Origin: Rickettsiales bacterium
Lineage (GTDB): Bacteria > Pseudomonadota > Alphaproteobacteria > Rs-D84
Direction of reading: 5' to 3'
Assembly: GCA_031260805.1 (NCBI GenBank)
Contig: JAISKV010000006.1
Coordinates: 1-47,806 of the forward strand
Length of the DNA: 47,806 nt
Below, piece after piece: positions 7,379-47,806 of this stretch. How positions within the stretch are numbered: the first letter of the stretch is position 1; the number at the start of each line of letters is the position of its first letter. The notes beneath the pieces were generated by a model. The model saw only the letters and a program-made list of their open reading frames with translations, was not told where the DNA came from and made no database searches. A program made the translations under genes and the position numbers.

Positions 7379-7509
7379 TTTATCCCCCATGAATGCTTGC
7401 ATATATTTTAATGCGCGCGCGCCCAAAAATCAAATGTTTTTATAAGAAAACACTCCTATCAACAAATCTTTTCTTTTGTGGAAAAATATTTTTGCACAAA
7501 GGAAATATC

Positions 7510-16600: not shown

Positions 16601-19600
16601 AATTGGGCTGCGGTCGCATGGTCTGCGAACAGCGTTCCGGCCAGATGCACGATTTCTTCATGCAAGGCGGCGTACAGCCTGGGCGGGACGAACCAGTCCA
16701 CAACATGCGCGTACTGCCCGACAACAGGCGATGGCGACTGCGGATGCGCGGCGGGAAATTTTCCCAGCGGCGGCGTTTGCAGCGCGTCAACGATAACCTG
16801 CGTGGCGGCGGGATTGACCGGCGCGACCGGGAATGCGACCTGGACCGGGTCCGCGTGGGATTTGACCCAGTGCCACAAGACCTGCACCCCGCCGACGCTG
16901 GCATCATTGCCGGGGTGCAAGACGGTCAGCGCGGCGTATGAAAACTATTATACCGGCGTGGCTTGGCCGGACTGCACTTACACCGTGACGGCAAATGACG
17001 GGTACACCGCGCACAGCGGAACCGCGCCTTATTGCAGCGCCAACGATTACACGATAACATTGGTCCAGAATGGCGGAACAGGCGGCACGACCAGCATTAT
17101 AGAAACATACGGCACCAAATGGACGCCCGCATCAATAACATTGCCGTCGCGCGGGAATTCCGCGTTCAAGGGCTACTATTCCGCGGATGACTGCGGCGGC
17201 ACGGCCGTGATTCCGGCAACCGGAACGATGCCCGCAAACACAACATACACCGCAGCCGCCAGTCTGTATGCTTGCTGGAAGTGCGATGCGGGAACTTACT
17301 GGAACGGCAGCACTTGCACAGACTGTCCGCGCGGATCATATAAAATCGGCGAATCCAACGGATACGGCGCGGCGGCGGCTTGCACCGTATGCCCGGGCGG
17401 TCAAACAACCGCCAGCACCAAGACGACAACAAACACCTGCGCGGCGAATACCTGCGTCAGCACGACACTGATATCAACAAACGCAAATGACGCCACCGGA
17501 AATCAAGGCGTTTCAGGGTGGCGGACGCAGACATTCGCTGAATTGGCGGGCGGCGGCTATAATTCCAACTGTTCTATTGATTCATGCAAGACCGGTTATG
17601 CGCGGATATCGCAGAACACTTGTTCATATTGCAGCGCGAACGGCGGCGTGAATTCCACAGCCAATGGAAATCCGATATTCAATTCCGGAAACGCAAATAC
17701 TTCCAGCGATTGCATCGTGACGACTTGCCGGGCCCAGGGGTATAAAATCAGCGCGCTGGCAACCAACAACAATGACTGCCAGTTATGCCCGATAAACCAG
17801 TGGCACATCGCAACCGGGACCAGTTCGGTCTTGGCATACACGGCAACAGGCGGAAATAATACAACCGCATCATGCGCGGCTGACGACTGTGCAGCGGGTT
17901 ATTATCATGAAGCGTATCTGCCATTCCTGACCCAGGCCAGCAATACGCCCGGCGTGTGCAGTCCGGCCGGCGATTGCAGCGTGTCAACATGCTATAACTG
18001 GAACGCGGCGGGCAGCGGCAATCTGGGATGCAATTCGTCAACATGCCTTATCAATTCGTGCAAAGACGGATATGAATTAAAGACCGCGTGTTCAACTGCG
18101 GCGGATGTCAGTTGTGAATCGCAATACGACAGCAATCCTGTGTGCGCGCCGAAAACATACACAATAACGCTGAATAAAAATCCGCGCGGCAGCAACGGCA
18201 CGGTCAGCGGAACCGCATCGGCATCCGTGAATTGCACTTTTGACAAGGCCTGCACGATACCGGTCGCCAGCGGACTGTCGCAGAACGGATACACAAACAG
18301 CAATACTTGGTGCAAGAACGCGGACGGCACGGGCGGATGCTTTGTCGGCGCTGTTCCGGCCGGAACGAATATCAGTCCGACCGGCGGCGCGATAACGCTG
18401 TACGCCAAATGGACGGCCACGGAATATTCCGTCGCGCTGAACGCGCACAATAATCCCGGGGGCAGTTATTATGACTGGCACGGCACGCAGACGGCGTACT
18501 TGCAGTATGACACGGGTTGGTCTGTGCTGTTGGGCGGGCAATTCAGCGCCCAACCGAGCATTGTCATCCCCGGCAAGAACGGGTATGTGTTCAACGGATA
18601 CTGGACGGCGGAAACCGGCGGAAGCCAAGTCATTGATGCGGCTGGAAAATTCAAGACAGGATTTCTGACACTGACCAGCAACAACACGACCGTGCTTCAC
18701 GCGCAGTGGACGCCCAAGGTTTATACGATTCTGTTTGATGAAAATAATGGCGATACGCCATCCAGCCCGGCCGTGCTTTACGAAAAGTACAACACCGGAT
18801 GGTTCACGAATGCAGGCGCATCCGCCGCGTTTACCGCTTGGACCAGTTTGCCGACGCGCGCGACATATAACTTTATCGGATTCACGACCGAGCCAAATGG
18901 CGGACTGGTGGTCTTTGACGCGACCGGCGCGCCGCAACTGACAACTATATCCAGCCAGACCGGGACGACAACCCTGTACGCGCAGTGGGAACTGGCGATT
19001 ATTCATTGCAACGCCGGATTTTACAAAAATACCAGCGGCGTCTGCACGCAATGCACGACGGGATCTTACTGCGAAGGCGGCGATTATCTGCTGGATACCC
19101 AGGAACGCGGGCGTATTTCATGCAGCACGGTCGGCGACGGATCGTACACTCTGTCCGCAGCCGGATCTGACGAAACCAGCGATTGTTATAAGAACACAAC
19201 CTGCGGCATTCTGAATTCTTATCAGATAACCGGCGGAACAGGCACTCAGAATTTCGGCGGAAATGATACCTGCACAGCGACGCTGGTGTCGTGCAACGCG
19301 AATTATTGGAAAAATGTGAACGCCTGCACGCTGTGCCCCGACAGCGGAATTGTATCCGCGCCAAGTGTCGGCGACGCGACGACTTGCTATAAAATCTGCG
19401 CGGACAAGGCGACCCCTGCGCATTGCGCGGACATCATAAATAATCTGGCGGCCGCGAATTCGCATTATTCCAATCCGGCCGGAACCGGCGGCGCGTACGC
19501 GACCTGCACATACACCGTATCGCCGAACACCGGTTATCACACCAGCGGCAGTCCCGGCGCGAATCCATCCTGTGTCGCGAACAATTATTCAATCAAGTTC

Positions 19601-21580
19601 AATGCAAACGGCGGATCCGGCGCAACAGCGGACAAGCAATGCACTTATGACCAGAATTGCCAATTGACCAGCAACGGATTTTACAAGACCGGATATGTCT
19701 GGACCGGATGGGCGACTGCGGCCGCGGCGGAAACCAGCCTGTCGGACGGCGACATGGTTCTGAATCGCACTGCGGCGGAAAATGAAATTTATAACTTGTT
19801 CGCTAAATACGGCCGTTGCGCGATCGGATATTATTATGACGGGGCATCGTGCGCCGAGTGCCCAATAGGAGCGGTTTGCGGAACAGAAACCTGCATTGAT
19901 GAAGCCGATTGCTGCCCGACTGGAAAATACTTTAACGGAACTTCGTGCGTTTCATGCCCGGCGGGGGATCCGACCTGCACCAGCGGCGGCGGTTGCAGCG
20001 CGTCTTTTGTCTGCTGCCCATCCGGATATTGGAACGACAGCGGAACATGCCGGCAGTGCGCAGTTGGCGACACGACATGCGGAACGAATGGCGGCGGTGG
20101 CGATGATCATTGCCCGATCGGATACTATTTCACAGGGACCGGATGCGCGAATTGCCCGAACGGTCAGACAACTTGCAGCGGAACTTGCACAGGCGGCGCT
20201 TGCGTATGCCCGAACGGAACAACGACGGCCGCGGGCGGCATGACCAGCCTTAACGATTGCAGCGTCAGTTGCAACACGGCGAACGGAACGGTATCGGCAA
20301 CTTGGCTGGATCCTTCATTTGCAGATGTCTTGTCCGGCAAGGCGTGCCAAGTTGACGATTGCGGCGGCGGGGCGGTGCCAAATGGCGGCGGCGATCAGTG
20401 CGATCTGTGTCCGATCGGGACATATAAACTGGACTCGTTCTATCCGGCCCAGGTCTGCGCGATATGCCCGCCGAACTTTGAGTGCACCGAACCCGGAACC
20501 GGTGGCGGCGGCGGATTGGACAGCATTTTCAAGTGCAAATACGGATGGACAATGCGCGGCGATCCTGATGCGGGAACCGCTTGGTGCGAATCAAACTGCG
20601 ATTTCGGAACAACAGGGTTTGGAATGCAAAACGCAAACGGCGCATGCATTTATACAGGATGCATCAGCGGATACCACTTGGTTGACGGCAGCACTGGATG
20701 CGAAGCGGATGTCCGGCAATGCAACACCGCCGACGGCACCGGATACCAGACTTGGAAAAACGGAACCTGGGGAACTTGCGGGCTGACGGCATGCGGCGAA
20801 GGATTTACACTGAAAAATGGTGTCTGCACGCCGAACGACCGCGAATGCACGACAAATGGCGGAACCGGAATGCAGTCCTGGGACGGGACAGCGTGGGGCA
20901 CTTGCCGCGAAACGGCGTGCAATTACAATCACGAAATGATCGGCGGTTCATGCGTGCCTTGCAACTTGCCGAATGCAGCAACTTACTCGCAATCCGGCAA
21001 TTGCAAAATCGCGACATGCAAATCAGGATGGCATGTGTCGGCGTTCGGCGAATGCGAAACAAATACCGTGGAATGCGAAATCCCGCACGCCGTCATCGCG
21101 ACCAAGGTCTGGAATAACAACGCGTACGGCAAATGCACGCCGCAAAAGTGCGAAGATTACTTCCACATAGAAGCCGACGCATGCATCAATGACGACCAGC
21201 CATGCATTCTGGACAACGGCAGCGGAATCGCTTCTTGGAACAAGATTTCCGATACAGCCGGCAATTGGGGTCCGTGCATTATCCAGAATTGCAATCCGGG
21301 ATACACCGGCGACAAAAACCTGACCGCGGAAAAGAACAAAGCCTGCGGAATCTGCAAGAATAGATACGGAATATTTGGTGAAATAGTCGCGGCGTCATAC
21401 GCCCAGGAATGCGAAATTACCGCATGCAATTACCAAGGCGAATTGTATAATCTGGAAGGCGGCGAATGCGTCCCGATTTGCAGCCCGAACGGTCGCAGCG
21501 ATGAAACGGGAACAATGGTGTGGAACAATACGACGCACAAGTGCGAGCGAACCTGCAACGCAGGATACAGCATGTGGTAA
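13655..21580 (+). CDS. Giant exported Cys-rich protein with InlB-B-like repeats and TNFR/ephrin-receptor-like Cys-rich repeats
   Basis: 2641 aa; signal peptide MPIKRLFFALFGVFVLAAVMPLSVAHA; repeats like FYIQYDANGGSGAPGNLTCTYDGTCTL...VYAVW and CPAGSYKSG..CPICAEGSYSAANGATACTACTAGT; upstream TATAAT and RBS AAGGAAGGGG. Confidence 0.85.
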   Translation: MPIKRLFFALFGVFVLAAVMPLSVAHAAYTCTQCYTQCNANYVYCTTPSFDRGGGNICGTGSDACPACVGCPSGYSRSGTSSTQTACTPDCTQCSTQSPYTLGGCLTNTNSCYRNCATSDIANSYALTGTITKGGTNTCTLTSCNGGYRKSSNACQGCPAGSSSSNGNTNDYCSCNTDTKRGGSWTGESTTSGTTGCSKPSATITFDKGAADSGAPSYTSGIFEYNTAKALPTVNTMAKAGYAFNGWGTANGCTSGDTGNKIYTSTPPSTLFACWTANSNTLSLNKNGGNCTIEGTASTTTASKSLTTGQTYTLPTIDSCAQTNYALPTTRQWCTTDGSGTPTCYNQGATYTMGSGNATLYIKWNYTVAYDGNGRTGGTAMPGSTTCVKNANCTIATVPAAPTRAGYTPNTTTWYSTNAGGTPSYASALTTYTAGPKTLYLKWTANTFYIQYDANGGSGAPGNLTCTYDGTCTLTTTAPTGKPSDYTTFVGWATSTANAASGTTVSTMNNATTTNGDTVKVYAVWSKSCSQTNTITNCSTYTTPTATQYYGGSCSAANRTCATCTACTKGAGVATCSAPGGTTCTYAATCDNGYNTPVVSNTSASCTGNNITINYNRDGGSGSDPASGSCVYGGKFNLATYTGIKSGFSYGGWQNASGTALGGNGVEINCSALGVYSGSTQVKAIWNIETNKVITFAANGGTCTTTTQSVVYNTATNLTDVNTLGCKRDGHVFTGWTGGPNGSYANGASITLTAGTTLTAGWTACGKGQYKPASANATATCGTCGAGSYQQNTGSTSCTACTDGYTSAAGAQASSSCSACGAIDGRNAWGTQTWNAATNVVDGLCTVATCIANRYKSGNTCPACSSVGDGTFTLSDLGTTTQNACYKSCDNITNASSMTGRNYYNQTDTCEVNQCTAGSYKSGTGTTATCPICAEGSYSAANGATACTACTAGTTILGTALADHNAAAKCAACTNTIAAGIDNWAAVAWSANSVPARCTISSCKAAYSLGGTNQSTTCAYCPTTGDGDCGCAAGNFPSGGVCSASTITCVAAGLTGATGNATWTGSAWDLTQCHKTCTPPTLASLPGCKTVSAAYENYYTGVAWPDCTYTVTANDGYTAHSGTAPYCSANDYTITLVQNGGTGGTTSIIETYGTKWTPASITLPSRGNSAFKGYYSADDCGGTAVIPATGTMPANTTYTAAASLYACWKCDAGTYWNGSTCTDCPRGSYKIGESNGYGAAAACTVCPGGQTTASTKTTTNTCAANTCVSTTLISTNANDATGNQGVSGWRTQTFAELAGGGYNSNCSIDSCKTGYARISQNTCSYCSANGGVNSTANGNPIFNSGNANTSSDCIVTTCRAQGYKISALATNNNDCQLCPINQWHIATGTSSVLAYTATGGNNTTASCAADDCAAGYYHEAYLPFLTQASNTPGVCSPAGDCSVSTCYNWNAAGSGNLGCNSSTCLINSCKDGYELKTACSTAADVSCESQYDSNPVCAPKTYTITLNKNPRGSNGTVSGTASASVNCTFDKACTIPVASGLSQNGYTNSNTWCKNADGTGGCFVGAVPAGTNISPTGGAITLYAKWTATEYSVALNAHNNPGGSYYDWHGTQTAYLQYDTGWSVLLGGQFSAQPSIVIPGKNGYVFNGYWTAETGGSQVIDAAGKFKTGFLTLTSNNTTVLHAQWTPKVYTILFDENNGDTPSSPAVLYEKYNTGWFTNAGASAAFTAWTSLPTRATYNFIGFTTEPNGGLVVFDATGAPQLTTISSQTGTTTLYAQWELAIIHCNAGFYKNTSGVCTQCTTGSYCEGGDYLLDTQERGRISCSTVGDGSYTLSAAGSDETSDCYKNTTCGILNSYQITGGTGTQNFGGNDTCTATLVSCNANYWKNVNACTLCPDSGIVSAPSVGDATTCYKICADKATPAHCADIINNLAAANSHYSNPAGTGGAYATCTYTVSPNTGYHTSGSPGANPSCVANNYSIKFNANGGSGATADKQCTYDQNCQLTSNGFYKTGYVWTGWATAAAAETSLSDGDMVLNRTAAENEIYNLFAKYGRCAIGYYYDGASCAECPIGAVCGTETCIDEADCCPTGKYFNGTSCVSCPAGDPTCTSGGGCSASFVCCPSGYWNDSGTCRQCAVGDTTCGTNGGGGDDHCPIGYYFTGTGCANCPNGQTTCSGTCTGGACVCPNGTTTAAGGMTSLNDCSVSCNTANGTVSATWLDPSFADVLSGKACQVDDCGGGAVPNGGGDQCDLCPIGTYKLDSFYPAQVCAICPPNFECTEPGTGGGGGLDSIFKCKYGWTMRGDPDAGTAWCESNCDFGTTGFGMQNANGACIYTGCISGYHLVDGSTGCEADVRQCNTADGTGYQTWKNGTWGTCGLTACGEGFTLKNGVCTPNDRECTTNGGTGMQSWDGTAWGTCRETACNYNHEMIGGSCVPCNLPNAATYSQSGNCKIATCKSGWHVSAFGECETNTVECEIPHAVIATKVWNNNAYGKCTPQKCEDYFHIEADACINDDQPCILDNGSGIASWNKISDTAGNWGPCIIQNCNPGYTGDKNLTAEKNKACGICKNRYGIFGEIVAASYAQECEITACNYQGELYNLEGGECVPICSPNGRSDETGTMVWNNTTHKCERTCNAGYSMW

Positions 21581-21605
21581 AAAACGCGCACAAGCGCGTT
21601 TTTTA
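21579..21605 (+). terminator. Rho-independent terminator of the giant gene
   Basis: AAAAAACGCGCACAAGCGCGTTTTTT. Confidence 0.8.
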
Positions 21606-21638
21606 ATTCACAATGCACAATGCATAATGCACAATTAA
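21604..21638 (+). repeat. Heptanucleotide array, left arm of MITE-like copy 2
   Basis: TAATTCA CAATGCA CAATGCA TAATGCA CAATTAA in strict 7-bp phase. Confidence 0.8.
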
Positions 21639-21833
21639 CCACTACCCCGTCCGCCTGCGGTGTTCACCCCTTCGCCTGCGAAGGGGAATTTGATGGTCTG
21701 CATCACACGATAAAACAACATTTATTGAAACGAAGTCGGGACAATTCCCCTTCGCTGGGACCCACCCACGAAAAACTTCGTTTTTCGCGGGGCCCGGGGA
21801 AGGGGTGGACGCTGCAGGCGGACGGGGTAGTGG
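21639..21833. mobile_element. MITE-like inverted-repeat element, copy 2
   Basis: CCACTACCCCGTCCGCCTGCGG.GTTCACCCCTT ... AAGGGGTGGACGCTGCAGGCGGACGGGGTAGTGG; interior shared with copy 1 (CCCACGAAAAACTTCGTTTTTCGCGGGGCCCGGG). Confidence 0.85.
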
Positions 21834-21893
21834 TACAATTAAGAATTATCAAATTATGTCTGACACTCTGTTTATTATAGCAGACAACGATAA

Positions 21894-21928
21894 TTCTTAT
21901 TTCTTAATTCTTCTTTCTTAATTAAACT
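21894..21928 (+). repeat. Heptanucleotide array TTCTTNN x4 plus one diverged unit
   Basis: TTCTTAT TTCTTAA TTCTTCT TTCTTAA TTAAACT, next to an AACCACCCC(GG)..CACCCCTCCATGGGAGAGG element fragment. Confidence 0.75.
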
Positions 21929-22007: not shown

Positions 22008-22037
22008 AAAAAAAACGCGCTTGCGCGCGTTTTTTTT
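22008..22037 (-). terminator. Terminator of rnpB
   Basis: AAAAAAAACGCGCTTGCGCGCGTTTTTTTT. Confidence 0.75.
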
Positions 22038-22336
22038 CAGACTTTCGTAAGCCGGATTCTGTTCCGCGTTTCCACGGCGGACGCAATTAATCTGCCGCGG
22101 CAGATTACTCTGCCGGGTCAAGCCCCCTACCCGTTTCCAACCGGTGGCACGGTTAACGGAAACCTATTTGAGGTTGCATCGCATAGAGATTGCCCGTTTC
22201 ACCCACCGCTTGCCGTGATTCGTCTCTGTTGCTCTGATCGTCGGGTCGCCCCGCGCGGCCGTTGGCCGCTATGCTGCCACATGATGTCCGGACTTTCCTC
22301 GGCCATTGCTGACCGCTGCGTCCTGATCGTCTGATT
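22036..22336 (-). ncRNA. rnpB: RNase P RNA (bacterial type A)
   Basis: Minus strand has GAGGAAAGTCCGGACATC, GGTGAAACGGGCAATCTC, GGGTAGGGGGCTTGACCC and ACAGAATCCGGCTTACG hallmarks. Confidence 0.93.
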
Positions 22337-22806: not shown

Positions 22807-25368
22807 ATGTTGAAAATATTGCAAAAAATTATTGGAAATTCTAATGACAGATTAATCAAGAATTACGACAAACTGGTATCATTGATAAATGATTTGGAAC
22901 CGTGGTATCACGCGATGACGGACGATCAATTGCGCGACGCGACCACAGAATTAAAGCAAAAACTGGCGGCCGGGGCGCGCGAACAGGATATTCTGGCGGA
23001 CGCATTCGCGCTGGTCCGCGAAGGCGGCATCCGCGCGACCGGCATGCGGCACTTTAATGTCCAGTTAATCGGCGGAATGGTGCTGAACGACGGCCAGATT
23101 TGCGAAATGAAGACCGGCGAAGGAAAAACGCTGGTCGCGACGCTGGCGTTGTTTCTGAAAGCCTTGCACGGCCGCGGCGCGCATCTGATAACCGTGAATG
23201 ATTACCTGGCGTCGCGCGACGCGGAAAGCATGGGCGAGTTATACAAATTCCTGGGGCTGACCGTCGGGGTCATTCAGCACGACATGGACGACGACGCGCG
23301 GCGCGCGGCGTACCAGTGCGACATAACATATGTGACGAACAGCGAACTGGGCTTTGATTATCTGCGCGACAATATGAAGTTCACCAAGGCCCAGCAGGTA
23401 TTGCGTCCGTTCTGGTACGCGATTGTTGACGAAGTGGATTCCATTCTGATTGATGAAGCCCGCACGCCGCTTATCATTTCCGGACCTTCCGAAGACACCA
23501 GCGAACTGTATGTCGCGATTGACGCGGCCGTTAAAAAACTGCGCGAATCCGATTACAAGAAAGACGAAAAGGACAAGCATGTAACCCTGACCGACGCCGG
23601 CGTGGACAGCATGACAAAACTGCTTACCGATTCCGGACTGATGACCGGGGAAAACCTGTACGCGCCTGAAAACTCCGCGCTGGTCATGCATATCGGGCAA
23701 TCGCTGCTGGCAAACCACTTGTATCAGAAAAATGTGAATTATGTCGTGCGCGACGGACAGATTTTAATCGTTGACGAATTCACGGGACGCGTCATGACGG
23801 GCCGGCGTTTCGGCAAAGGCCTGCACCAGGCGATAGAGGCCAAGGAAGGCGTCGCCGTGCAGCCTGAAAATCAGACGGTATCTTCAATTTCTTATCAAAA
23901 CTTGTTCCGGATGTATCCAAAACTGGCCGGGATGACCGGCACCGCGATGACCGAAGCGGCCGAGTTCGAGGAAATTTACAATCTGCGCGTCGTATCCGTG
24001 CCGACCAACCGGCCTGTGATGCGCAACGATCACCAAGACGAAATTTACAAAAACAAGTCCGAAAAATATGACGCGATAATCGCGCAGATAAAAACATGCC
24101 TGGACAGAAGTCAACCCGTTCTGGTCGGGACAATAACAATTGAAAAATCCGAAGAATTGGCGGCGGAAGTCAGAAAACGGCTGAACATCCAGCCGGCGGT
24201 ATTGAATGCCAAGCATCACGAATCCGAAGCGAGAATAATCATGCAGGCCGGCGCCCCAGGGACCATTACAATCGCGACCAACATGGCGGGCCGCGGCACA
24301 GACATCAAACTGGGCGGCAATGCCGAAGAATTAATCAAAGAGCAAAAAGCGACAAGCAAAGAGCAGAAAGATGCAATCTATGCGATGGTTGAAAAAAACA
24401 AAAAGTTGGTTTTGGATGCGGGCGGACTGTTTGTTATTGGAACCGAACGGCACGAATCGCGCCGCATTGACAACCAATTGCGCGGACGATCCGGACGCCA
24501 GGGGGATCCCGGCGAATCCAAGTTCTTTCTGGCATTGGACGACGATTTGATGCGGATTTTCGGCGCGGCGCGGCTGGGCGGCATGCTGACGACGATGGGG
24601 TTGAAACCCGGCGAGGCGATAACGCATCCCTGGATTACCAAGGCCCTGGAAAAAGCGCAGAAGCGCGTGGAAGCCCGGTATTTTGAGTCGCGCAAGGAAC
24701 TGTTAAAGTACGACAATGTCATGAACGAGCAGCGCAAGGTTGTTTATTCCCAGCGCGACGAATTGATGTCTTCGGAAAATCTGCAACCGTTCATGCGCGA
24801 GTTAATCGGCGATGTCGTTGAAAATATTTGCGAGTCAAACATTCCGGAAAAATCGCGTTCCGAAGAATGGAATACCGATGGCATTCATGACGCGTTCATC
24901 CGGACATTCGGCATGGACATAACAGATATCCAAAACTGGAAGTCGGACGAAACAATCAACGAAACCAAGGCGTTTGATTCTTTGCTGCAACTGGCAAACT
25001 CGCGCTATGCGGCGCAAGAGCAAAAGTACGGACGCGAACTGATGGCGATGGCCGAGCGCCAGATGACGCTGTCCGCGCTGGACGCTTGCTGGAAACGGCA
25101 TCTGGCCCAGATGGATTACTTGCAGACGGGAATCGGGCTGCGTGGGTACGCCCAGAAAAATCCATTGTATGAATACAAGCGCGAGGCTTTTGATTTATTC
25201 AAGAACATGATGCTGGCATTCAAGACTCAGTCCGTCGTTTATGTTTGCAGAATGGAACTGAATCGCCGCGAGTTGGAAGAAACCAAGGCCGACCAAGAAT
25301 CGTACGGGGAATCGCTGAATGACGAAACGCCTGCAATCGCCGAAGACAAATGGAAAAAAATATTTTAG
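22807..25368 (+). CDS. secA: Preprotein translocase subunit SecA (no C-terminal Zn/SecB-binding tail)
   Basis: MKTGEGKTLVATL, VDEVDSILIDEARTPLIISG, TNMAGRGTDIKLGG, GTERHESRRIDNQLRGRSGRQGDPGES; RBS AAAGGAAT. Confidence 0.96.
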   Translation: MLKILQKIIGNSNDRLIKNYDKLVSLINDLEPWYHAMTDDQLRDATTELKQKLAAGAREQDILADAFALVREGGIRATGMRHFNVQLIGGMVLNDGQICEMKTGEGKTLVATLALFLKALHGRGAHLITVNDYLASRDAESMGELYKFLGLTVGVIQHDMDDDARRAAYQCDITYVTNSELGFDYLRDNMKFTKAQQVLRPFWYAIVDEVDSILIDEARTPLIISGPSEDTSELYVAIDAAVKKLRESDYKKDEKDKHVTLTDAGVDSMTKLLTDSGLMTGENLYAPENSALVMHIGQSLLANHLYQKNVNYVVRDGQILIVDEFTGRVMTGRRFGKGLHQAIEAKEGVAVQPENQTVSSISYQNLFRMYPKLAGMTGTAMTEAAEFEEIYNLRVVSVPTNRPVMRNDHQDEIYKNKSEKYDAIIAQIKTCLDRSQPVLVGTITIEKSEELAAEVRKRLNIQPAVLNAKHHESEARIIMQAGAPGTITIATNMAGRGTDIKLGGNAEELIKEQKATSKEQKDAIYAMVEKNKKLVLDAGGLFVIGTERHESRRIDNQLRGRSGRQGDPGESKFFLALDDDLMRIFGAARLGGMLTTMGLKPGEAITHPWITKALEKAQKRVEARYFESRKELLKYDNVMNEQRKVVYSQRDELMSSENLQPFMRELIGDVVENICESNIPEKSRSEEWNTDGIHDAFIRTFGMDITDIQNWKSDETINETKAFDSLLQLANSRYAAQEQKYGRELMAMAERQMTLSALDACWKRHLAQMDYLQTGIGLRGYAQKNPLYEYKREAFDLFKNMMLAFKTQSVVYVCRMELNRRELEETKADQESYGESLNDETPAIAEDKWKKIF

Positions 25369-25789
25369 TTATTAGTTATTATACCTTGGAAATTGGAATG
25401 GCAGAGAGCATAATCTTGATTAAAAGTGAAGCATTTGCAGATCGCATAATAAAATTATATAAATTTCTATGTTATGAAAAACAAGAATATATAATTTCTA
25501 AACAAATCTTCCGAAGTGGTACCAGTATTGGCGCAAATATTGCAGAATCAATGTATGCGGAAAGCAAAAAGGACTTTATATCAAAACTCGCAATTGCACA
25601 AAAGGAAACCGCGGAAACATTATACTGGTTGCGCAGACTTCAAGCAGGGCAATTTATAAATACATCGCAGTATGAGAATATTTATGCAGATTGCACGGAA
25701 CTTATAAAAATAATAACTTCCATAATAACATCAACAAAATTAAAATATGTGCCCAAGAGTATAATAACTAATAACTAATAATTAATAAC
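25365..25789. mobile_element. Heptad-armed inverted-repeat element (TTAGTTA family) carrying a four-helix-bundle ORF
   Basis: Left TTAGTTA TTAGTTA TTATACC (25365-25385); right GTATAATAACTAATAACTAATAATTAATAAC (25759-25789); 20-bp perfect terminal inverted repeat. Confidence 0.75.
25398..25778 (+). CDS. Four helix bundle protein (TIGR02436 / 23S rRNA IVS ORF / Avd-like)
   Basis: YEKQEYIISKQIFRSGTSIGANIAESMYAESKKDFISKLAIAQKETAETLYWLRRL is the family signature. Confidence 0.88.
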   Translation: MAESIILIKSEAFADRIIKLYKFLCYEKQEYIISKQIFRSGTSIGANIAESMYAESKKDFISKLAIAQKETAETLYWLRRLQAGQFINTSQYENIYADCTELIKIITSIITSTKLKYVPKSIITNN

Positions 25790-25790
25790 C

Positions 25791-28700
25791 ATGAGTGATT
25801 TCGTTCATCTTAATCTTCACACTGGGTATTCGGTCGGGATTGGAACAATAACTGTCCAGCGGCTGGCCGAACTGTGCGCGGAAAACAAGATGCCGGCCGT
25901 CGCGATAACCGACACCAATCTGATGACAGGAATCGCCGAAGCGTCGGACAAGTTGCCGGCGTCCGGAATTCAGCCGATAATCGGTATTACCATTTCTGTG
26001 AATCATCACAACGCCGATCCGAAAATGCTGCGCGCGGATTCGCTGGCGCGCGTGATTTTATTGGCGCAGAACCACGGCGGATACCTGAACCTGTGCAGGC
26101 TGTCCGAAATAATGTACATGCGCGACGCCAATCTGCATCTGGGCGCGCACATAACGATTGACGAACTGTTTTCGCATGCGGACGGATTGATTTGTCTGTC
26201 CGGAAATATTTTGATTAACGAAATTTTGCAAGGGCTGGACGCCGCGCCGACCGCGCGGAAATTTTACAGCGCGTTCGGGGACCGGTTTTACATTGAATTG
26301 CAGCGGCACGGACTGGACGCAGAAATAAAGTCCGAGCCCGGGTTATTGCGCATCGCGCGCGAATTGAATATTCCGATTGTCGCGACGAACAACGCGTGCT
26401 TTGCCGCGCCTGAAAATTACGAATCTTCCGATGCGTACGGATGCATTCTGGACCAGACGAAAATCATAGATCCCGATCGCCGCCGCCGGTCGTCCGAACA
26501 GTATTTCAAGTCCGCGGCAGAAATGCGCGAACTGTTTTCCGATTTGGCAGAGGCTTGCGACAACACGGTTTCAATCGCGCGGCGATGCAATTTCTTTGTC
26601 AATGTTCATGAAAAACCGCTGCTGCCGAAATTCGCCGCGGACTTTGACGAAGAATGCAGAATGCTGCGCGACGGCACGATGTCCGGCTTGACCAAATTGG
26701 TCGCGGATATGCCGGAAGACGCGCGCAAGCCGTACTTTGACCAGGCCGAGTTTGAGTTGCAGACGATTATAAACATGGGATTTCCAGGATACTTTTTAAT
26801 CGTCGCGGAATACATAGAATGGTGTCGGGAAAATGACATCATGACCGGGCCGGGTCGCGGATCCGGCGCGGGATCCGTCGTCGCATGGTCGCTGGGGATT
26901 ACCAAGGTTGATCCGTTGAAATACGGATTGCTGTTCGAGCGGTTCTTGAATCCGGACCGCATTTCAATGCCCGACTTTGATATTGATTTCGAGCCGGTCG
27001 GATTGGAGAGAGTCAAGCAGCATCTGATTGAAAAATATGGAAACGAAGAAGTCTGCCAAATCATAACTTTCGGATCGTTGCAGGCCAAGGGCGCGGTGCG
27101 CGATTGCGGCCGCGTGTTCGGCGTGCCTTATTCCAAATCCGACAAACTGTGCAAAATTATTCCAAACGACGCCAAGACTTTGCGCGACGCGATAAACGGA
27201 AATTATGAAATTCAAGACATCCTTAACGACGACGACATCATGAAAAAATCCGTGTCCGTCGCGATGGATATAGAAGGCGCCATCCGCGCCCTGGGCCAGC
27301 ACGCGTGCGGCATCGTTATCGGCGATCGTCCGACGATTCAGATTTCGCCGGTGTACCGCGATGCGGCGAACCCGCTGCCTTCGTGCCAGTTTGACATGGA
27401 TTATTTGGAAAAGGCCGGGCTGATTAAATTTGATTTTTTGGGATTGGAAACGCTGGCTATACTTAAACGCGCGGCGGCGATGATTGAAAAAAATCATCTG
27501 AAAAAAATAGACTTGGAAAACATCCCGCTGGATGACGAACTGACATTCAAGAATATTTACCAGCCCGGCAAGACGGACGGCATATTTCAATTTGAAGCCC
27601 AATTTGTCAAGCAGACGCTGAAAAAAATGCGCCCGACCAAGTTCGAGCATCTGGTCGCGCTGACCGCGCTGAACCGACCCGGGCCAATCGGGTTTATTCC
27701 GTCCTATATCGCGCGGATGCATGGGGAAGAGCCTGTGCAGTATCCGCATGACAAGGCCAAGGATATTCTGGAAGAAACATTCGGAATTTTCGTGTACCAG
27801 GAACAAATCATGCTGCTGACGCGCGCGCTGGCCGGATTCACGCGCGGCGAAGCCGATGGCGTGCGCAAGGCGATGGGCAAAAAAATCATCAAGATGATGA
27901 ACGAGTTCGAAGTCAAGTGGCTGGCCGGATGCGAACGCGAAAATACTCTGGCGCCGGACGCGGCAAAAAAAATGTGGGAGGAGTTCAAGGAATTCGCCAA
28001 GTACGCATTTAACAAATCGCATTCTGTGTGCTATGGCATCATATCCCAGCAGTGCGCTTATCTGAAAGCGCACTGGCCTGCGGAATTTCTGGCTGCATCA
28101 ATATCCAGTTCGCTGAACGATGCCGAGAAGATATCCGCATTTATGGAAGATGCCCGCGCAAATTTCGGCATAGTCGTCGTTCCGCCCGACATCAACAAGT
28201 CCGAAGCATTGTTCCATGTCGCGGACGGAAAAATAATTTATGGTCTGGCCGGGATAAAGGGCGTCGGCACGGCGGCCGCCAATCAGATTGTCGCCGAACG
28301 AATCCGCGGCGGCGCGTTCAAGGACCTTACCGATTTCGCAAAGCGGACCGCCGGAATGATAAACAAGCGCGTCGTGGAATCGTTTGCGAAAACAGGCGTG
28401 CTGGATTGTCTGGAACCTTCGCGCGCGCGGGTGTTCATGAATGCCGATGCGATTCTGATGTACGCGTCCCGGCAGCGGGCGGACGCGGGCGTGCTTTCGC
28501 TGTTCGGCGATGAAGGCGGCGGCGAGAAAATAAAACTGCAACCCGTTCCTGAATGGAGTTTCGGAGAACGCTTGGAAAACGAGTTGTCGGCGCTGGGCTT
28601 TTACATTTCCGCGCATCCGCTGGACCAGTATAAAAATTTATTGGAACGCAGCGGCATGGTCAACAGCATAACCCTGCAAAAAACGCCGGACAGAAAACAG

Positions 28701-29156
28701 GTATCAATCGCCGCGAATGTGAATTCTTACCAGCGGCGGCGCACCAAGGCCGGCAAGGAAATGTTAAGCGTCAACGCGTCCGATATTTTTGGAAACATTG
28801 ACGCGGTCGCGTTCGGCGACAGCGCGATTGAATTTGCAAACATCCTGGCGCGCGAATCAGTCGTCATTATAAACGGACGGGCATCGGCGCGCGACGACAC
28901 TGTTTCAATCTTTATAGACGGGATTTCGCCAATATCCGCATGGGTGTCCGGGGCGGTGAAGAAACTGACGCTGAACATTTCCGATACCGAAGTATTGCCC
29001 GGGTTAAAGGGATTGATTGACAGCCTGCCGAACGGGAACACCCGCATCGTTCTGCGTATCGGCGAAAACTCGCTGGCAATTCCGCGCAGCGTGCGATTGA
29101 ACGAAACGATTGTGTCCGACATGTCGCAACTGGGCATCAAGATAGAGATGGAGTGA
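25791..29156 (+). CDS. dnaE: DNA polymerase III subunit alpha
   Basis: PHP domain start FVHLNLHTGYSV; GPGRGSGAGSVVAW; MPDFDIDFE; IFVYQEQIM; KSHSVCYGIISQQCAYLKAHWPAEF. Confidence 0.96.
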   Translation: MSDFVHLNLHTGYSVGIGTITVQRLAELCAENKMPAVAITDTNLMTGIAEASDKLPASGIQPIIGITISVNHHNADPKMLRADSLARVILLAQNHGGYLNLCRLSEIMYMRDANLHLGAHITIDELFSHADGLICLSGNILINEILQGLDAAPTARKFYSAFGDRFYIELQRHGLDAEIKSEPGLLRIARELNIPIVATNNACFAAPENYESSDAYGCILDQTKIIDPDRRRRSSEQYFKSAAEMRELFSDLAEACDNTVSIARRCNFFVNVHEKPLLPKFAADFDEECRMLRDGTMSGLTKLVADMPEDARKPYFDQAEFELQTIINMGFPGYFLIVAEYIEWCRENDIMTGPGRGSGAGSVVAWSLGITKVDPLKYGLLFERFLNPDRISMPDFDIDFEPVGLERVKQHLIEKYGNEEVCQIITFGSLQAKGAVRDCGRVFGVPYSKSDKLCKIIPNDAKTLRDAINGNYEIQDILNDDDIMKKSVSVAMDIEGAIRALGQHACGIVIGDRPTIQISPVYRDAANPLPSCQFDMDYLEKAGLIKFDFLGLETLAILKRAAAMIEKNHLKKIDLENIPLDDELTFKNIYQPGKTDGIFQFEAQFVKQTLKKMRPTKFEHLVALTALNRPGPIGFIPSYIARMHGEEPVQYPHDKAKDILEETFGIFVYQEQIMLLTRALAGFTRGEADGVRKAMGKKIIKMMNEFEVKWLAGCERENTLAPDAAKKMWEEFKEFAKYAFNKSHSVCYGIISQQCAYLKAHWPAEFLAASISSSLNDAEKISAFMEDARANFGIVVVPPDINKSEALFHVADGKIIYGLAGIKGVGTAAANQIVAERIRGGAFKDLTDFAKRTAGMINKRVVESFAKTGVLDCLEPSRARVFMNADAILMYASRQRADAGVLSLFGDEGGGEKIKLQPVPEWSFGERLENELSALGFYISAHPLDQYKNLLERSGMVNSITLQKTPDRKQVSIAANVNSYQRRRTKAGKEMLSVNASDIFGNIDAVAFGDSAIEFANILARESVVIINGRASARDDTVSIFIDGISPISAWVSGAVKKLTLNISDTEVLPGLKGLIDSLPNGNTRIVLRIGENSLAIPRSVRLNETIVSDMSQLGIKIEME

Positions 29157-29157
29157 A

Positions 29158-29254
29158 TATAGTTATTAATTTTTAATTATTAGTTATTATACCATTGTGC
29201 GCGCTATAACAATTCCGCCACCACAAACAAAATAACTAATAACTAATAACTAAT
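29158..29254. mobile_element. Short heptad-armed inverted-repeat element (no ORF)
   Basis: TTAGTTATTATACCATTGTGCGCGC...CCGCCACCACAAACAAAATAACTAATAACTAATAACTAAT. Confidence 0.75.
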
Positions 29255-30088
29255 ATGAAACACATACCGGTGCTCTTGAATGCTGTTTTGGAAATGCTGG
29301 GGGATATTCGCGGCAAGACGATTATTGACGCGACATTCGGGGCCGGCGGATACAGCCGCGCCTTTCTGGAACGCGGCGCGGGTGTTATTGCGTTTGACCG
29401 CGATACGACTGTCAAAAAATTCGCGGATGAAATTCATGATAAGAATTTTCAATTTTTTAACAAACCATTTTCCGAAATCCGGACACTGAACCTTGAAAAC
29501 TGCCATGTTGTCTTTGACTTTGGCGTATCGTCAATGCAGATTGACACGCCGGACCGCGGGTTTTCTTGGCGGTTTGACGCGCCGCTGGACATGCGCATGG
29601 GCGGCGGAATCACGGCCGGACAATTGATAGAAGATTCAACGGTTGACGAATTGGCGCGGATTCTGCGCGATTACGGCGATGTGAAAAAGTCAAGAATGTT
29701 TGCGACAATCATTAAAAACGCAAATCCGAAAACGACTTTCCAATTGCGGGATTTGATAAATAATCCCAAGGATATCGCCCCGATTTTTCAGGCCCTGCGC
29801 ATCGCGGTAAACGACGAACTGGGCGAAATACGGACGGCATTGAACGCGGTGCCGGAACTGCTGGGGGCCGGCGGAATTTGCGCCGCGGTCAGTTTTCATT
29901 CATTGGAAGACCGGATTGTAAAATCATATTTCCGCGAATTAACGGCGCCTGTCGGCGACCCGCGAATACCGGTCGCGGCGATCCGGCAGTGGGAACTGTT
30001 AAAGACGGTCCGGCCGGACGCGGACGAACTGGACGCCAATCCGCGGGCGCGCAGCGCGCACTTGCGCGGGATAAAAAAAGTGTTATAA
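29255..30088 (+). CDS. rsmH: 16S rRNA (cytosine1402-N4)-methyltransferase RsmH (MraW)
   Basis: HIPVLLNAVLEML, DATFGAGGYSRAFLE, FDFGVSSMQIDTPDRGFSW, SFHSLEDRIVKSYFRE. Confidence 0.95.
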   Translation: MKHIPVLLNAVLEMLGDIRGKTIIDATFGAGGYSRAFLERGAGVIAFDRDTTVKKFADEIHDKNFQFFNKPFSEIRTLNLENCHVVFDFGVSSMQIDTPDRGFSWRFDAPLDMRMGGGITAGQLIEDSTVDELARILRDYGDVKKSRMFATIIKNANPKTTFQLRDLINNPKDIAPIFQALRIAVNDELGEIRTALNAVPELLGAGGICAAVSFHSLEDRIVKSYFRELTAPVGDPRIPVAAIRQWELLKTVRPDADELDANPRARSAHLRGIKKVL

Positions 30089-30215: not shown

Positions 30216-31388
30216 ATGAAAATATTTTTTATCTTTTATCTTTTAATTTTTATCTTGCCGGCGGCGCATGCGTTTTCAACGCCGGCAAAATCGGCGTACC
30301 TGTACGACTATCATTCCGGCGCGGTGCTGTTTGACAAGGATGCGGACGAACTGATGCCGCCTTCGTCCATGCTGAAACTGATGACGATCGCGCTGGGAAT
30401 GCAGGCGTTGCAGGACGGCGAATTGAAATTGGCCGACAAACTGCCGGTGTCAAAAAATGCGGACTATCAAAACCCGGTGTGGCACAGCGCCAGCAAGATT
30501 TGCCTTTCCGAAGGCCAGCGCGTTTCAGTTTCAGATTTATTGGACGGAATGATAGTATTAAGCGGCGGCGACGCCTCGGTTGTTCTGGCGGAAAAACTGG
30601 CGGGCAGCGAATCCGCGTTCACTGATAAAATGACCGCATTCGCGCGCGGGATAGGCATGGAGAATTCCACCTTTGGAAACGCGACCGGCCTGCCGCATCC
30701 GGATAATTTGATGACCAGCCGCGAATTGGGAATTCTGGCAAAATACATCATTGACAAGTTTCCGGAATATTATCCGCGGTTTGCCCAGCGGCGGTTTGAG
30801 TTCGGCGATTTCAAGTCCGACTGGTGCCGTCAATGGGGCGCGTCGCACACGCTGAATTACAATAAACTGCTGTTCATCATGGGCGGCGCGGACGGGCTTA
30901 AAACCGGGCACACCAGCAGCGGCGGATACGGCATGGTCGCGTCGGCGCGCCGCGGCGGGCGACGGCTGATCGGCGTAATCAACGGATTGCGCGCGGCGGA
31001 TCACAACGCGCTGGCCGGACAGATGAAGAAATTGCTGGAATTCGGATTTTCAGATTTCCAAAATAAATCGTTTATAAAATCCGATGCGGTTATTGCGGAA
31101 ATCCCGGTCTGGTACGGGCGCCGTAATTTTGTCGCGGCCGGGGTCGCAAATGATTTCGTTTTAACTTTCCAAAAAAATCAAACCGGCGACGGGATAAAAA
31201 TAATCGCCCGGTATGAGGAGCCTTTGCGCGCGCCGGTATCCGCTGGTCAGAAACTGGGCGCGGTTATCGCGATGCGCGACGGGCGCGAAATCGCGCGCGC
31301 TGATCTGGTCGCGAAATCCAGGGTCGGACGAGCATGGTTTTTCGGGCGCATAATGCAAAACATCAGGGTGATATTCAATGGCCGTTAA
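30216..31388 (+). CDS. dacA: D-alanyl-D-alanine carboxypeptidase (PBP5/6 family)
   Basis: Signal peptide; SSMLKLMT (SxxK), LSGGDAS at the SxN position, GLKTGHT (KTG). Confidence 0.9.
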   Translation: MKIFFIFYLLIFILPAAHAFSTPAKSAYLYDYHSGAVLFDKDADELMPPSSMLKLMTIALGMQALQDGELKLADKLPVSKNADYQNPVWHSASKICLSEGQRVSVSDLLDGMIVLSGGDASVVLAEKLAGSESAFTDKMTAFARGIGMENSTFGNATGLPHPDNLMTSRELGILAKYIIDKFPEYYPRFAQRRFEFGDFKSDWCRQWGASHTLNYNKLLFIMGGADGLKTGHTSSGGYGMVASARRGGRRLIGVINGLRAADHNALAGQMKKLLEFGFSDFQNKSFIKSDAVIAEIPVWYGRRNFVAAGVANDFVLTFQKNQTGDGIKIIARYEEPLRAPVSAGQKLGAVIAMRDGREIARADLVAKSRVGRAWFFGRIMQNIRVIFNGR

Positions 31389-32319: not shown

Positions 32320-33050
32320 ACACTCACGCGCATTTTTACGACAGCAATCCGGACGAAGTCATCGCGAACGCGGCCGCGGCCAATGTCGGAATTATTGTCG
32401 CGGCATCCGCGCATCCGGATGATTTGGAAAAAAATACCGCGCTGTGCGAAAAGTATGAAAATATATTCTGCACAATCGGGATTCATCCGGAATATGCGAA
32501 TCAGCGTTCAGATTTCAGATTTCAGATTTCAGATAAAGTAATTGGGATTGGCGAAATCGGGTTGGATTATCACTATGAAAACAACCCGCCGCGCGATGCG
32601 CAGATTGAATTGTTTTTGCGGCAACTGGAAATCGCACAAAACGCCGGACTGCCCGTGGCGGTCCATACCCGCGACGCAGAACAGGATACGATAAACATCC
32701 TGGGCGACCATTCCGGACATGGAGTCCTGCACTGCTTTACAGGGACATGGAACCTGGCGAAAACTATGCTGGACCGCGGCTGGTTTGTTTCCGCCAGCGG
32801 GATAATCTCGTTCAAGAATTCCGACGATTTGCGCGACACTTTCGCGCGGATTCCAACGGACAGAATCGTTATTGAAACCGATTCCCCGTTCTGCGCGCCG
32901 GTTCCGTACCGCGGCAAGCAGTGCCAGCCGTTCATGGCTGCGGAAGTTGCGAAATGCATGGCGCAGATAAAAAATATCCCGCTGCCGGAAATGGAAATTA
33001 TTTTGGAAGAAAACACTAAACGGCTGTACCCGAAACTATGCAGAAATTGA
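32310..33050 (+). CDS. tatD: TatD family metal-dependent hydrolase
   Basis: MFIDTHAHFYD, IGEIGLDYHYENNPPRDAQIELFLRQL, HCFTGTW, ETDSPFCAPVPYRGKQCQP. Confidence 0.93.
   Translation: MFIDTHAHFYDSNPDEVIANAAAANVGIIVAASAHPDDLEKNTALCEKYENIFCTIGIHPEYANQRSDFRFQISDKVIGIGEIGLDYHYENNPPRDAQIELFLRQLEIAQNAGLPVAVHTRDAEQDTINILGDHSGHGVLHCFTGTWNLAKTMLDRGWFVSASGIISFKNSDDLRDTFARIPTDRIVIETDSPFCAPVPYRGKQCQPFMAAEVAKCMAQIKNIPLPEMEIILEENTKRLYPKLCRN
32507..32534 (+). repeat. Heptanucleotide tandem repeat TTCAGAT x4 inside tatD
   Basis: Four perfect consecutive TTCAGAT units, encoding SDFRFQISD. Confidence 0.95.
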
Positions 33051-36592: not shown

Positions 36593-36753
36593 ACCACTAC
36601 CCCGTCAGCGGCTACGCCGCTGCCACCCCTTCGCCGGCGAAGGGGATTATCCCAACTTCGTTTCAATAAATATCGTTTTATTATGTGATGCAGGCCATCA
36701 AATTCCCCTTCGCTGGCGAAGGGGTGGCGCGCGAAGCGCGACGGGGTAGTGGT
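36593..36753. mobile_element. MITE-like inverted-repeat element, copy 3
   Basis: ACCACTACCCCGTC..CACCCCTTCGCCGGCGAAGGGG ... CCCCTTCGCTGGCGAAGGGGTGG...GACGGGGTAGTGGT. Confidence 0.85.
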
Positions 36754-36780
36754 ACAATTATGAATTGTAAATTGTGCATT
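36753..36780 (-). repeat. Heptanucleotide array, right arm of copy 3
   Basis: TACAATT ATGAATT GTAAATT GTGCATT in 7-bp phase; reverse complement of the CAATGCA-type left arms. Confidence 0.75.
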
Positions 36781-36811
36781 GAAAAAATCGCCATCCGGCG
36801 ATTTTTTTATT
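36781..36811 (-). terminator. Rho-independent terminator
   Basis: AAAAAATCGCCATCCGGCGATTTTTTT. Confidence 0.75.
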
Positions 36812-42160: not shown

Positions 42161-42185
42161 ATTATGTTTACTCCTTCGTCGTAAA

Positions 42186-42288
42186 AGTTATTAATTATAA
42201 GTTATTAGTTATTATACACCGATTTTGGCGGCATAATTATTATAACGCGCGCAATGGTATAATAACTAATAATTAATAACGAATAATT
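42186..42288. mobile_element. Short heptad-armed inverted-repeat element between groS and groL
   Basis: AGTTATTAATTATAAGTTATTAGTTATTATACACC...CAATGGTATAATAACTAATAATTAATAAC. Confidence 0.72.
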
Positions 42289-42291
42289 GAT

Positions 42292-42961: not shown

Positions 42962-42963
42962 AA

Positions 42964-43068
42964 ATTATTAGTTATTAATTATTAGTTATTAGTTATTATA
43001 CCATTGTGCATGCCGCAATAATTCCGCCACCACAAACAAAAGTATAATAACTAATAACTAATAACTAA
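42964..43068. mobile_element. Short heptad-armed inverted-repeat element
   Basis: TTAGTTATTAGTTATTATACCATTGTGCATGC...CCGCCACCACAAACAAAAGTATAATAACTAATAACTAATAACTAA. Confidence 0.78.
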
Positions 43069-43095
43069 AAAAATCCGCCGGCGGCGGATTTTTTT
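43067..43095 (-). terminator. Terminator of lemA (possibly bidirectional)
   Basis: AAAAAAATCCGCCGGCGGCGGATTTTTTT. Confidence 0.75.
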
Positions 43096-43659: not shown

Positions 43660-44265
43660 CTATTTGTTAAATTTCAGCATGCCGTCTTCTGTCGCCGCGT
43701 TCCATCCCAGCGCGCCCAGCGCGTTGATAAGGCTGCGCCGCTTGGCCGCATTGTATAAAATCTGCACGCGCCCGCCGCCGATTGATTTCACCGACATGTT
43801 TAATCCGTCAATTTCATCCAATCCCGCATTGATATTTTTCCAATCCCGCAGACCGTTCGTCAGATAAATAACAGCCGCCGCATTGTCGCCGACATCGTAC
43901 GCCAGAGAATTGGCAATTCCATTCGCCGCGAACAGTTTTTTCACCGCGGATTCGTCAAAATTTATTTTTATAGTGGCGGCATAGTTCGTCGCGGAAATTT
44001 TTTCATCTTCAATCGCGGTGTTCGCGATCAGGTTCTCTATCTCGCCGCCGGATAATTTGTCGGCCAGCGCCGCAACCGCGGCATGATCGGCATAGCGGTC
44101 GCCGACCTGGATAAAGATGTCGCGGCGCGCAGACGACAGCGCGTTTGTCTTGGCCGCGGCCGCCGAAGCAGCAGACCGTTCAATCGTCGCGGTGCCGGAC
44201 AAATCCGCGGCGAACGCCCCGCCGAGACAAAAGATAAAAGATAAAAGATAAATAAATTTTCTCAT
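43660..44265 (-). CDS. Exported hypothetical protein
   Basis: Signal peptide MRKFIYLLSFIFCLGGAFA; in series with lemA and an OM protein gene. Confidence 0.65.
   Translation of the reverse strand: MRKFIYLLSFIFCLGGAFAADLSGTATIERSAASAAAAKTNALSSARRDIFIQVGDRYADHAAVAALADKLSGGEIENLIANTAIEDEKISATNYAATIKINFDESAVKKLFAANGIANSLAYDVGDNAAAVIYLTNGLRDWKNINAGLDEIDGLNMSVKSIGGGRVQILYNAAKRRSLINALGALGWNAATEDGMLKFNK
44230..44250 (-). repeat. Heptanucleotide tandem repeat AAAGATA x3 in the signal-peptide coding region
   Basis: Three perfect AAAGATA units (TATCTTT on coding strand). Confidence 0.9.
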
Positions 44266-44310
44266 ACGGAAGATTATAATTGGTTTAATTGCGCTTTGCA
44301 ACAAATAAAC

Positions 44311-46004: not shown

Positions 46005-46050
46005 GTACCACAATGGTATAATAACTAACAATTAATAACTAATAACTATT
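46005..46050. repeat. Half copy of the heptad-armed element
   Basis: CCACAATGGTATAATAACTAACAATTAATAACTAATAACTATT; no opposite arm. Confidence 0.65.
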
Positions 46051-46080
46051 AAAAAAACGGGCTTGCGCCCGTTTTTTTAA
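46050..46080 (-). terminator. Rho-independent terminator of rubrerythrin
   Basis: TTAAAAAAACGGGCTTGCGCCCGTTTTTTTAA. Confidence 0.78.
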
Positions 46081-47662: not shown

Positions 47663-47687
47663 AAAATCGCCAGCGGCGAATTTTTCA
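47661..47687 (+). terminator. Terminator-like hairpin
   Basis: AAAAAATCGCCAGCGGCGAATTTTTC. Confidence 0.6.
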
Positions 47688-47713
47688 ATGCACAATGTAC
47701 AATGCACAATTTT
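47686..47713 (+). repeat. Heptanucleotide array, left arm of MITE-like copy 4
   Basis: CAATGCA CAATGTA CAATGCA CAATTTT in strict 7-bp phase. Confidence 0.8.
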
Positions 47714-47806
47714 ACCACTACCCCGTCCGCCTGCGGCGTCCACCCCTTCGCTGGCGAAGGGGATTTATCCTTACTTCGTTTCAGGTGCAGGCCAACGAAT
47801 TCCCCT
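47714..47806. mobile_element. MITE-like element, copy 4 (cut by window end)
   Basis: ACCACTACCCCGTCCGCCTGCGGCGTCCACCCCTTCGCTGGCGAAGGGG...GCAGGCCAACGAATTCCCCT. Confidence 0.8.

Follow-up and report, generated by a model that had tools for sequence, protein, structure and literature searches.

Period 7 is the sole strongly enriched tandem period in the 729-kb genome analyzed here, and the arrays behind this signal suggest, at what we would call even chances from the sequence evidence, a process, at work throughout the genome and the family, in which tolerant DNA is overwritten with modules of about 31-35 nt (4-5 heptads). The tolerant targets of such writing would be spacers, signal-peptide cores, and the linkers of conserved proteins. 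The window, by which we mean the whole 47,806-nt stretch under analysis, is contig C13 of an assembly of 729,005 bp in 15 contigs that is 93.5% complete, and the genomes of its family and order relatives are all 0.7-1.1 Mb, sizes that agree with the reduced gut Alphaproteobacteria known as 'Enterousia', of the order Rs-D84 (PMC12306168). A previous sequence-only reading had noticed heptad arms on two unrelated repeat families, together with a third array, and had proposed a common process that adds 7-nt units at element ends, through slippage or templated terminal addition, rather than descent from one repeat. That interpretation was half right. A common process is the better reading, since unrelated families share one period, but it would consist of writing modules in place and not of adding heptads at termini.

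Period, length, and unit composition of the arrays

The arrays that had been quoted from the window are all present there (Table 1), and among its TRF rows period 7 outnumbers every other period. Genome-wide, 80 kb of intergenic sequence shows autocorrelation maxima at 7, 14, and 21 nt (0.305 for a lag of 7 versus 0.286 for 6 and 0.278 for 8). With a fixed score cutoff, the intergenic arrays come to 85 for period 7, 46 for period 14, and 14 for period 21, with 0-10 for each remaining period in the range 2-24 and about 0.1 in shuffles. Strong arrays in the whole genome number 209 at period 7 versus 3, 19, 1, and 10 at periods 5, 6, 8, and 9, so the proposal of a special period survived the comparison that could have overturned it, and tandem 7-nt units are over-represented relative to other periods, as in bacterial heptameric SSRs. 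Elsewhere, the relative G010 has 81 strong arrays, the relative G009 has 2 in 694 kb, and 50 kb of E. coli K-12 yielded none at period 7; one genome per species was compared, the nearest relatives being at about 60-67% amino-acid identity. The arrays do not form a regularly spaced chromosome-wide mark, their spacing being random (CV 0.945 versus 0.905 +- 0.072), nor are AAATCAT arrays a feature of the class, with chance-like matches only, in 2 non-family genomes of 240 (3 genomes tallied).

Table 1. Heptad arrays and associated elements in the window
Position	Strand	Feature	Remarks
21605..21636	+	heptad array AATTCACAATGCACAATGCATAATGCACAATT, AATKCAY family	between terminator and left end of GC-rich element
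21638..21838	+	GC-rich inverted-repeat element	core ends ACCACTACCCCGTC ... GACGGGGTAGTGGT
21836..21847	-	short right arm ACAATTAAGAATT, AATTAAG type	orientation opposite to 21891-21923
21891..21923	+	33-nt heptad array TAATTCTTATTTCTTAATTCTTCTTTCTTAATT, TTCTTAA/TTCTTAT family	followed by a AACCACCCCGG fragment at about 21934
24336..24370	+	weak array of heptads within secA	linker IKEQKATSKEQKD
25365..25381	+	short TTAGTTA array	
25762..25788	-	TTAGTTA-family array	immediately upstream of dnaE (ORF 25791-29156)
29160..29189	+	TTAGTTA-family inverted-repeat element, left arm	
29231..29255	-	TTAGTTA-family inverted-repeat element, right arm	partner of 29160..29189
30223..30256	+	TATCTTT-family array	signal-peptide core MKIFFIFYLLIFILPA of D-Ala-D-Ala carboxypeptidase (PF00768)
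32501..32534	+	34-nt TTCAGAT array inside TatD-family gene	substitutes the orthologous loop
35525..35556	+	TTTATTC/TTTTTTC array	N-terminal signal-like segment of ORF 35518-36546
36593..36753	+	GC-rich inverted-repeat element	
36756..36781	-	right arm AATTATG AATTGTA AATTGTG CATTG (ACAATTATGAATTGTAAATTGTGCATTG at about 36755-36781)	adjoins terminator
42182..42214	+	TTAGTTA family, left arm	
42260..42291	-	TTAGTTA family, right arm	
42963..42998	+	TTAGTTA family, left arm	36 nt
43045..43071	-	TTAGTTA family, right arm	
44225..44252	-	TATCTTT-family array	signal-like N-terminus (FIYLLSFIFCLGGAFA) of ORF 43660-44304
46019..46052	-	34-nt TTAGTTA-family array	
47686..47710	+	CAATGCA arm CAATGCACAATGTACAATGCACAAT	left of GC-rich element at window end
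47714..47806	+	GC-rich element	cut by window end

Array length is the second distinctive property. Copy number at period 7 peaks at 4.5 and falls from 50 arrays with 5.0 copies to 7 with 5.5, whereas at periods 5, 6, 8, and 9 it simply declines. Array lengths peak at 31-35 nt, as they do in part of G010. The edges are sharp, with no residual periodicity beyond the ends: outside the arrays, the match to a periodic continuation is 0.22-0.28 at nearly all distances past the first base (random, 0.248). Arrays do not begin and end in all phases equally, in part an effect of how variable positions of the unit are trimmed. Stepwise addition of 7-nt units at termini, as had been proposed, fits poorly with a length that peaks at about 31-35 nt without a fall-off with unit number and with arrays that replace loops in genes.

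The units fall into many families. Clustering of 236 arrays gave 23 clusters, versus 56.5 expected for random heptads of equal composition, the largest families being AACTAAT (= TTAGTTA), AAGAATT, AAAAGAT, AACTCTG, AAAAGTG, AAACCTT, AAATCAT, and AATAATG. At least eight unrelated families are well populated, more than the two or three recognized before, and the CAATGCA family is a small one. Units are as different within an array as between arrays of one family (distances of 1.17 versus 1.18 for AAACCTT and 1.68 versus 1.72 for AAATCAT). Local tandem duplication predicts units that are more alike within an array, while equality is what copying from a shared pool, or repeated exchange between arrays shifted by 7 nt, would give, so the observed equality favors templated patch replacement among arrays and runs against growth from a local unit by slippage or stepwise addition.

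That heptamers dominate the long repeats of bacteria has been on record since 2007 at the latest, and no tested mechanism for it is known to us. Many bacteria are reported to have heptamers as their commonest long simple repeats, with slippage proposed as the cause (PMC4679880, PMC4692102). If replication slippage prefers 7 nt, an idea of polymerase contact that is credited to Mrazek and colleagues, then local heptads would be duplicated in tandem, and period 7 is indeed special in this genome. We consider this explanation unlikely here, and disfavored as the whole story, because arrays of 4.5 copies are commonest and those of more than 5 are scarce, units are no more alike within arrays than between them, a few unit families dominate, and replacement in genes is nearly length-neutral. 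Taken together, the length peak, sharp edges, near-neutral replacement, unit mixing, and recurrence disfavor both slippage and terminal 7-nt addition.

Arrays inside genes and their recurrence in relatives

About 120 of the 319 arrays lie in ORFs, and only 28 inverted pairs of one family lie within 250 bp, which is difficult to reconcile with the idea that units are added at the ends of elements. Half of the ORF arrays are within the first 35 codons, where most resemble signal-peptide cores as judged by eye (for example, MKKILFIIHYSLFIAFAA, MKKLLALFSLFTFHFSLSAA, and MKIFFIFYLLIFILPA), and the other half are internal, in linkers of ligA, mnmE, pheT, der, mutL, valS, tatD, and, weakly, secA (genes assigned with NCBIfam). 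Because 3 does not divide 7, an array of heptads encodes the identical run of seven residues over and over, whichever frame is read. In this one genome, arrays make up dozens of signal peptides and linkers, a case of a mutational process as a source of raw coding sequence. Two very large ORFs in the window encode what are likely surface proteins, one of 1792 aa (7393-12771) with degenerate GGCGGCGCGATTTAT repeats of about 93 nt and one of 2641 aa (13655-21580) with Listeria-Bacteroides repeat domains (PF09479).

Comparison with orthologues rules out plain insertion of arrays into genes, the change being near length-neutral. The array KNHKSEIIN in LigA aligns gap-free with every family orthologue except one, and in MnmE EIINHKSEIINR occupies the place of RIISNKDQIKPR in the relative G016; PheT gives another example of replacement. 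In 119 comparisons of arrays with orthologues (this genome, G010, and G009), the change in length was within 3 aa in 73 and +8 aa or more in 9, for modules with a coding length of about 11 aa. Random windows of those same proteins stay within 3 aa in 80% of cases, and exactly zero change was found in 21 of the 119 array loops versus 55% of random windows; G010 arrays carry a mean change of about +3 aa. Replacement is therefore approximate rather than strictly length-neutral. Modules take the place of most of a loop while its length stays roughly the same, and selection on that length must play a part. In-frame inserts that resemble RPEs and are about 30 aa long also occur, such as SPSLRGSVAQRATRGSSPQSA...GGGTG in G010, in TatD among other genes, and NHPAAARHPSKGGELRPNANASSPPLEGCPQGGVV in a C12 gene of this genome orthologous to G010 C3:9724, and sometimes they occupy a loop that bears a heptad array in the other genome.

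Arrays recur in the same genes of relatives. LigA, PheT, and MnmE of relatives contain arrays with other units (CCATCAT, GTGAACC, ACGCATC, GGGACYA, and others), some of them at the same loops. For 85 coding arrays of this genome an orthologue could be aligned from G010, which belongs to another genus, and in 16 of these cases G010 has an overlapping array at the aligned site. That is about ten times the chance figure (mean of 1.64 and maximum of 5 in 300 draws of random placement), although such placement spans whole proteins and is blind to loop preference, so part of this excess reflects shared tolerant sites. In most of the 16 pairs, the units are clearly different; units agree between this genome and a relative in MnmE, C12:97422-98723, and LigA. 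At four sites, AAATCAN arrays are present in both lineages, with nucleotide identity of 79-94% in the array versus 61-65% in the remainder of the gene, and 73-91% versus 43-45% at third codon positions, values that speak for rewriting or homogenization but are inflated by the choice of sites with recognizable arrays on both sides. Gene-internal replacement and recurrence are possibly the trace of a so far undescribed mechanism.

Could selection alone produce this pattern, with no special mutational process, through a DNA or RNA motif of four to five evenly spaced protein-binding words or through the composition of signal peptides? Unit profiles that are degenerate yet consistent (for example, MACTCTR and AAACCTY), the non-uniform start and end phases, and the hydrophobic coding in signal peptides would all suit such selection. 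The same families, however, turn up in signal peptides and linkers as well as in spacers, eight or more of them are unrelated, arrays are randomly spaced along the chromosome, and most sites shared with G010 carry other units there, which together leave this explanation distinctly improbable.

Inverted arms, a reverse transcriptase, and a proposed templated process

Neighbors of one family no more than 250 bp apart form 28 inverted pairs and 0 direct ones, bearing out the observation that arms are inverted around cores. TTAGTTA inverted pairs frequently enclose a 46-nt spacer. The end of the GC-rich element, ACCACTACCCCGTC, is present 79 times in the genome, and its outer flank consists of AATGCAC, TTCAGAG, AATTAAG, or GARAYAT heptads or has no heptads; the copy at C12:41202-41337 has a TTCAGAG arm on its left and a TTAGTTA arm on its right. 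A heptad array lies within 12 nt of 22 of these 79 core ends (28%), versus 10.8% of random intergenic points. The GC-rich family had been described as flanked by such arms; because the same core bears differing families or none, the arms are modular, not a fixed part of the element, and lie outside its descent. A more diverged arm, GAGACAT GTGAAAT GAGATAT GAAACAT, stands between terminators and the GC-rich element at C4:12496, C6:36761, C6:39982, and C11:39522. Many arms in the window are immediately adjacent to a hairpin and T run that resemble a terminator (22009, 36782, 43068, 46052, and 47661), and an RNase P RNA of bacterial class A (22033-22334, minus strand) sits directly beside the locus at 21604-21928.

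These pairs raise the possibility that the arrays are the ends of MITE- or REP-like elements moved by a heptad-binding transposase, with solitary arrays as remnants. The TTAGTTA and GC-rich elements do combine multiple copies, terminal inverted repeats, and a common core, as MITEs do, and solitary and coding arrays do not. The exclusively inverted pairs, the common 46-nt spacer, and, in phage-like IMG/VR contigs, dispersed elements whose conserved core lies between heptad arms of 33 nt speak for this explanation, but about 120 arrays are in ORFs, nearly always single, coreless, and without extra length, and the identical GC-rich core occurs with differing heptad families or with none. No Y1 transposase (PF01797) was found in this genome, which sets aside RAYT/REPIN-type mobilization as far as the Y1 family is concerned. 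Movement of element ends is, in our view, as unlikely as slippage.

The sequence-only reading had asked for a linked reverse transcriptase (RT), terminal transferase, or transposase. An RT of the type found in diversity-generating retroelements (DGRs), 350 aa long and with an IGNLCSQ motif, is encoded at C12:148-1197, with heptads adjoining its 3' end. Its closest solved relative is 8ub7 (2.8e-38; the next is at 2.7e-14), which we take to be the Bordetella phage DGR RT. A 68-aa ORF lies upstream, and the contig edge is formed by a repeat common to contig C9. Self-comparison for a DGR template/variable repeat pair recovered only copies of dispersed elements, in a setting where the RT is at a contig edge and a template beyond it could escape. 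RT homologues occur in about half of the genomes of the family. Dependence of the arrays on the RT is rejected by G010, which bears arrays without it, so the RT is at most one contributor. That an RT of this type makes short cDNAs pasted over chromosomal DNA at many sites, as in mutagenic homing, is the least probable explanation, for although DGRs replace sequence in place (PMC3521204, PMC3240598), this genome encodes such an RT, and arrays occur in 7 of 12 RT-positive versus 3 of 11 RT-negative relatives (small samples; not significant), G010 (97% complete, 3 contigs) has its 81 arrays while matching neither this RT nor PF00078, RT-positive G016, G021, and G022 are without arrays in the stretches sampled, and no adenine-biased template/variable repeat pair was found.

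Any mechanism has to accommodate a fixed module length, sharp edges, replacement in place, mixing of units at the level of families, and recurrence at the same site with other units. In-place module writing could do so if it were templated by existing arrays, with ectopic conversion or template switching copying a patch of about 33 nt. Such templating would account for the family structure, the shuffling of units, and the conservation of shared arrays at the nucleotide level. In size, such a patch would be close to the 35-nt site of a single SSB tetramer. Purifying selection would then retain in-frame copies that code for hydrophobic or hydrophilic stretches as required. Inverted pairs around a core form a second layer, in which some pairs (the TTAGTTA elements with their conserved 46-nt spacer, and the GC-rich element) are dispersed repeats that carry or abut modules.

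Relation to known heptamer repeats and other systems

Heptad arrays are also found beyond this family. Exact IMG/VR probes (AAATCAT)3, (TTAGTTA)3, (AAACCTT)3, and (TTTTCAC)3 each matched 11-37 stretches, versus 3 for a period-8 probe of similar composition and 17 for a period-6 probe, and stretches matched by the heptad probes held 7.6-33 further heptad arrays per 100 kb versus 1.8 in those matched by the period-6 probe. Two phage-like contigs, 3300032163_001985 and 3300036766_000602, carry a dispersed intergenic element with 33-nt (AGATTTA)n inverted arms and a conserved core that includes TTATCAGTTTTTTTGAATGCT. Together with the heptamers of Xanthomonas, these elements indicate that the module length and the paired arrangement recur in unrelated genomes. 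More tentatively, and with rather less than even confidence, we propose an undescribed bacterial process in which heptad modules of about 33 nt would be written over the chromosome from a genome-specific heptad pool as template, recurring in distant lineages and phages and building signal peptides, linkers, and inverted-repeat arms.

Among named systems, Rickettsia palindromic elements (RPEs) are palindromes of about 150 bp that add in-frame sequence (PMC10969869). Like the arrays, they are small repeats tolerated in conserved genes of a reduced alphaproteobacterial genome, but RPEs are in-frame additions of about 100-150 bp, whereas heptad modules are about 33 nt, tandem, and near length-neutral; the closer RPE analogue in these genomes is the GC-rich element. 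DGRs resemble the present case in that coding DNA is rewritten in place and an RT near DGR RTs is present; in contrast to DGRs, there are hundreds of targets, no adenine bias, no template/variable pair, and an array-bearing relative without the RT.

In Beggiatoaceae and some cyanobacteria, TAACTGA direct repeats occur in dispersed arrays of two to six units (PMC4679880). They too are dispersed heptamer arrays but, unlike those described here, have one exact unit with rare variants, lie upstream of start codons, and lack inverted arms. Calothrix is described, in a secondary citation (PMC4692102), as having three STRR heptamer families in one genome. Going by that description, the presence of several heptamer families per genome is a likeness to the arrays reported here. 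We know of no description of STRR heptamers as inverted-repeat arms, as gene-internal replacements, or in signal peptides.

A close parallel is that of the GGGNATC heptamers of Xanthomonas and Nostoc, which are dispersed, degenerate at fixed positions, and prefer four units, with 70-75 inverted neighbor pairs of arrays per Xanthomonas genome (PMC4692102). The arrays described here share the preference for about four units (peak 4.5 copies) and the inversion of neighbors (28 versus 0 direct). Xanthomonas and Nostoc, however, have one G-rich, G-quadruplex-forming unit type per genome, about 90% of it intergenic, whereas here at least eight AT-rich families depart from the GGGNATC pattern, and 120 of 319 arrays are in ORFs, where they replace loops and signal-peptide cores. 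Heptamer arrays, the preference for four units, and inverted pairs were thus already known from Xanthomonas, while the many families, the in-place replacement, and the recurrence seem to be new.
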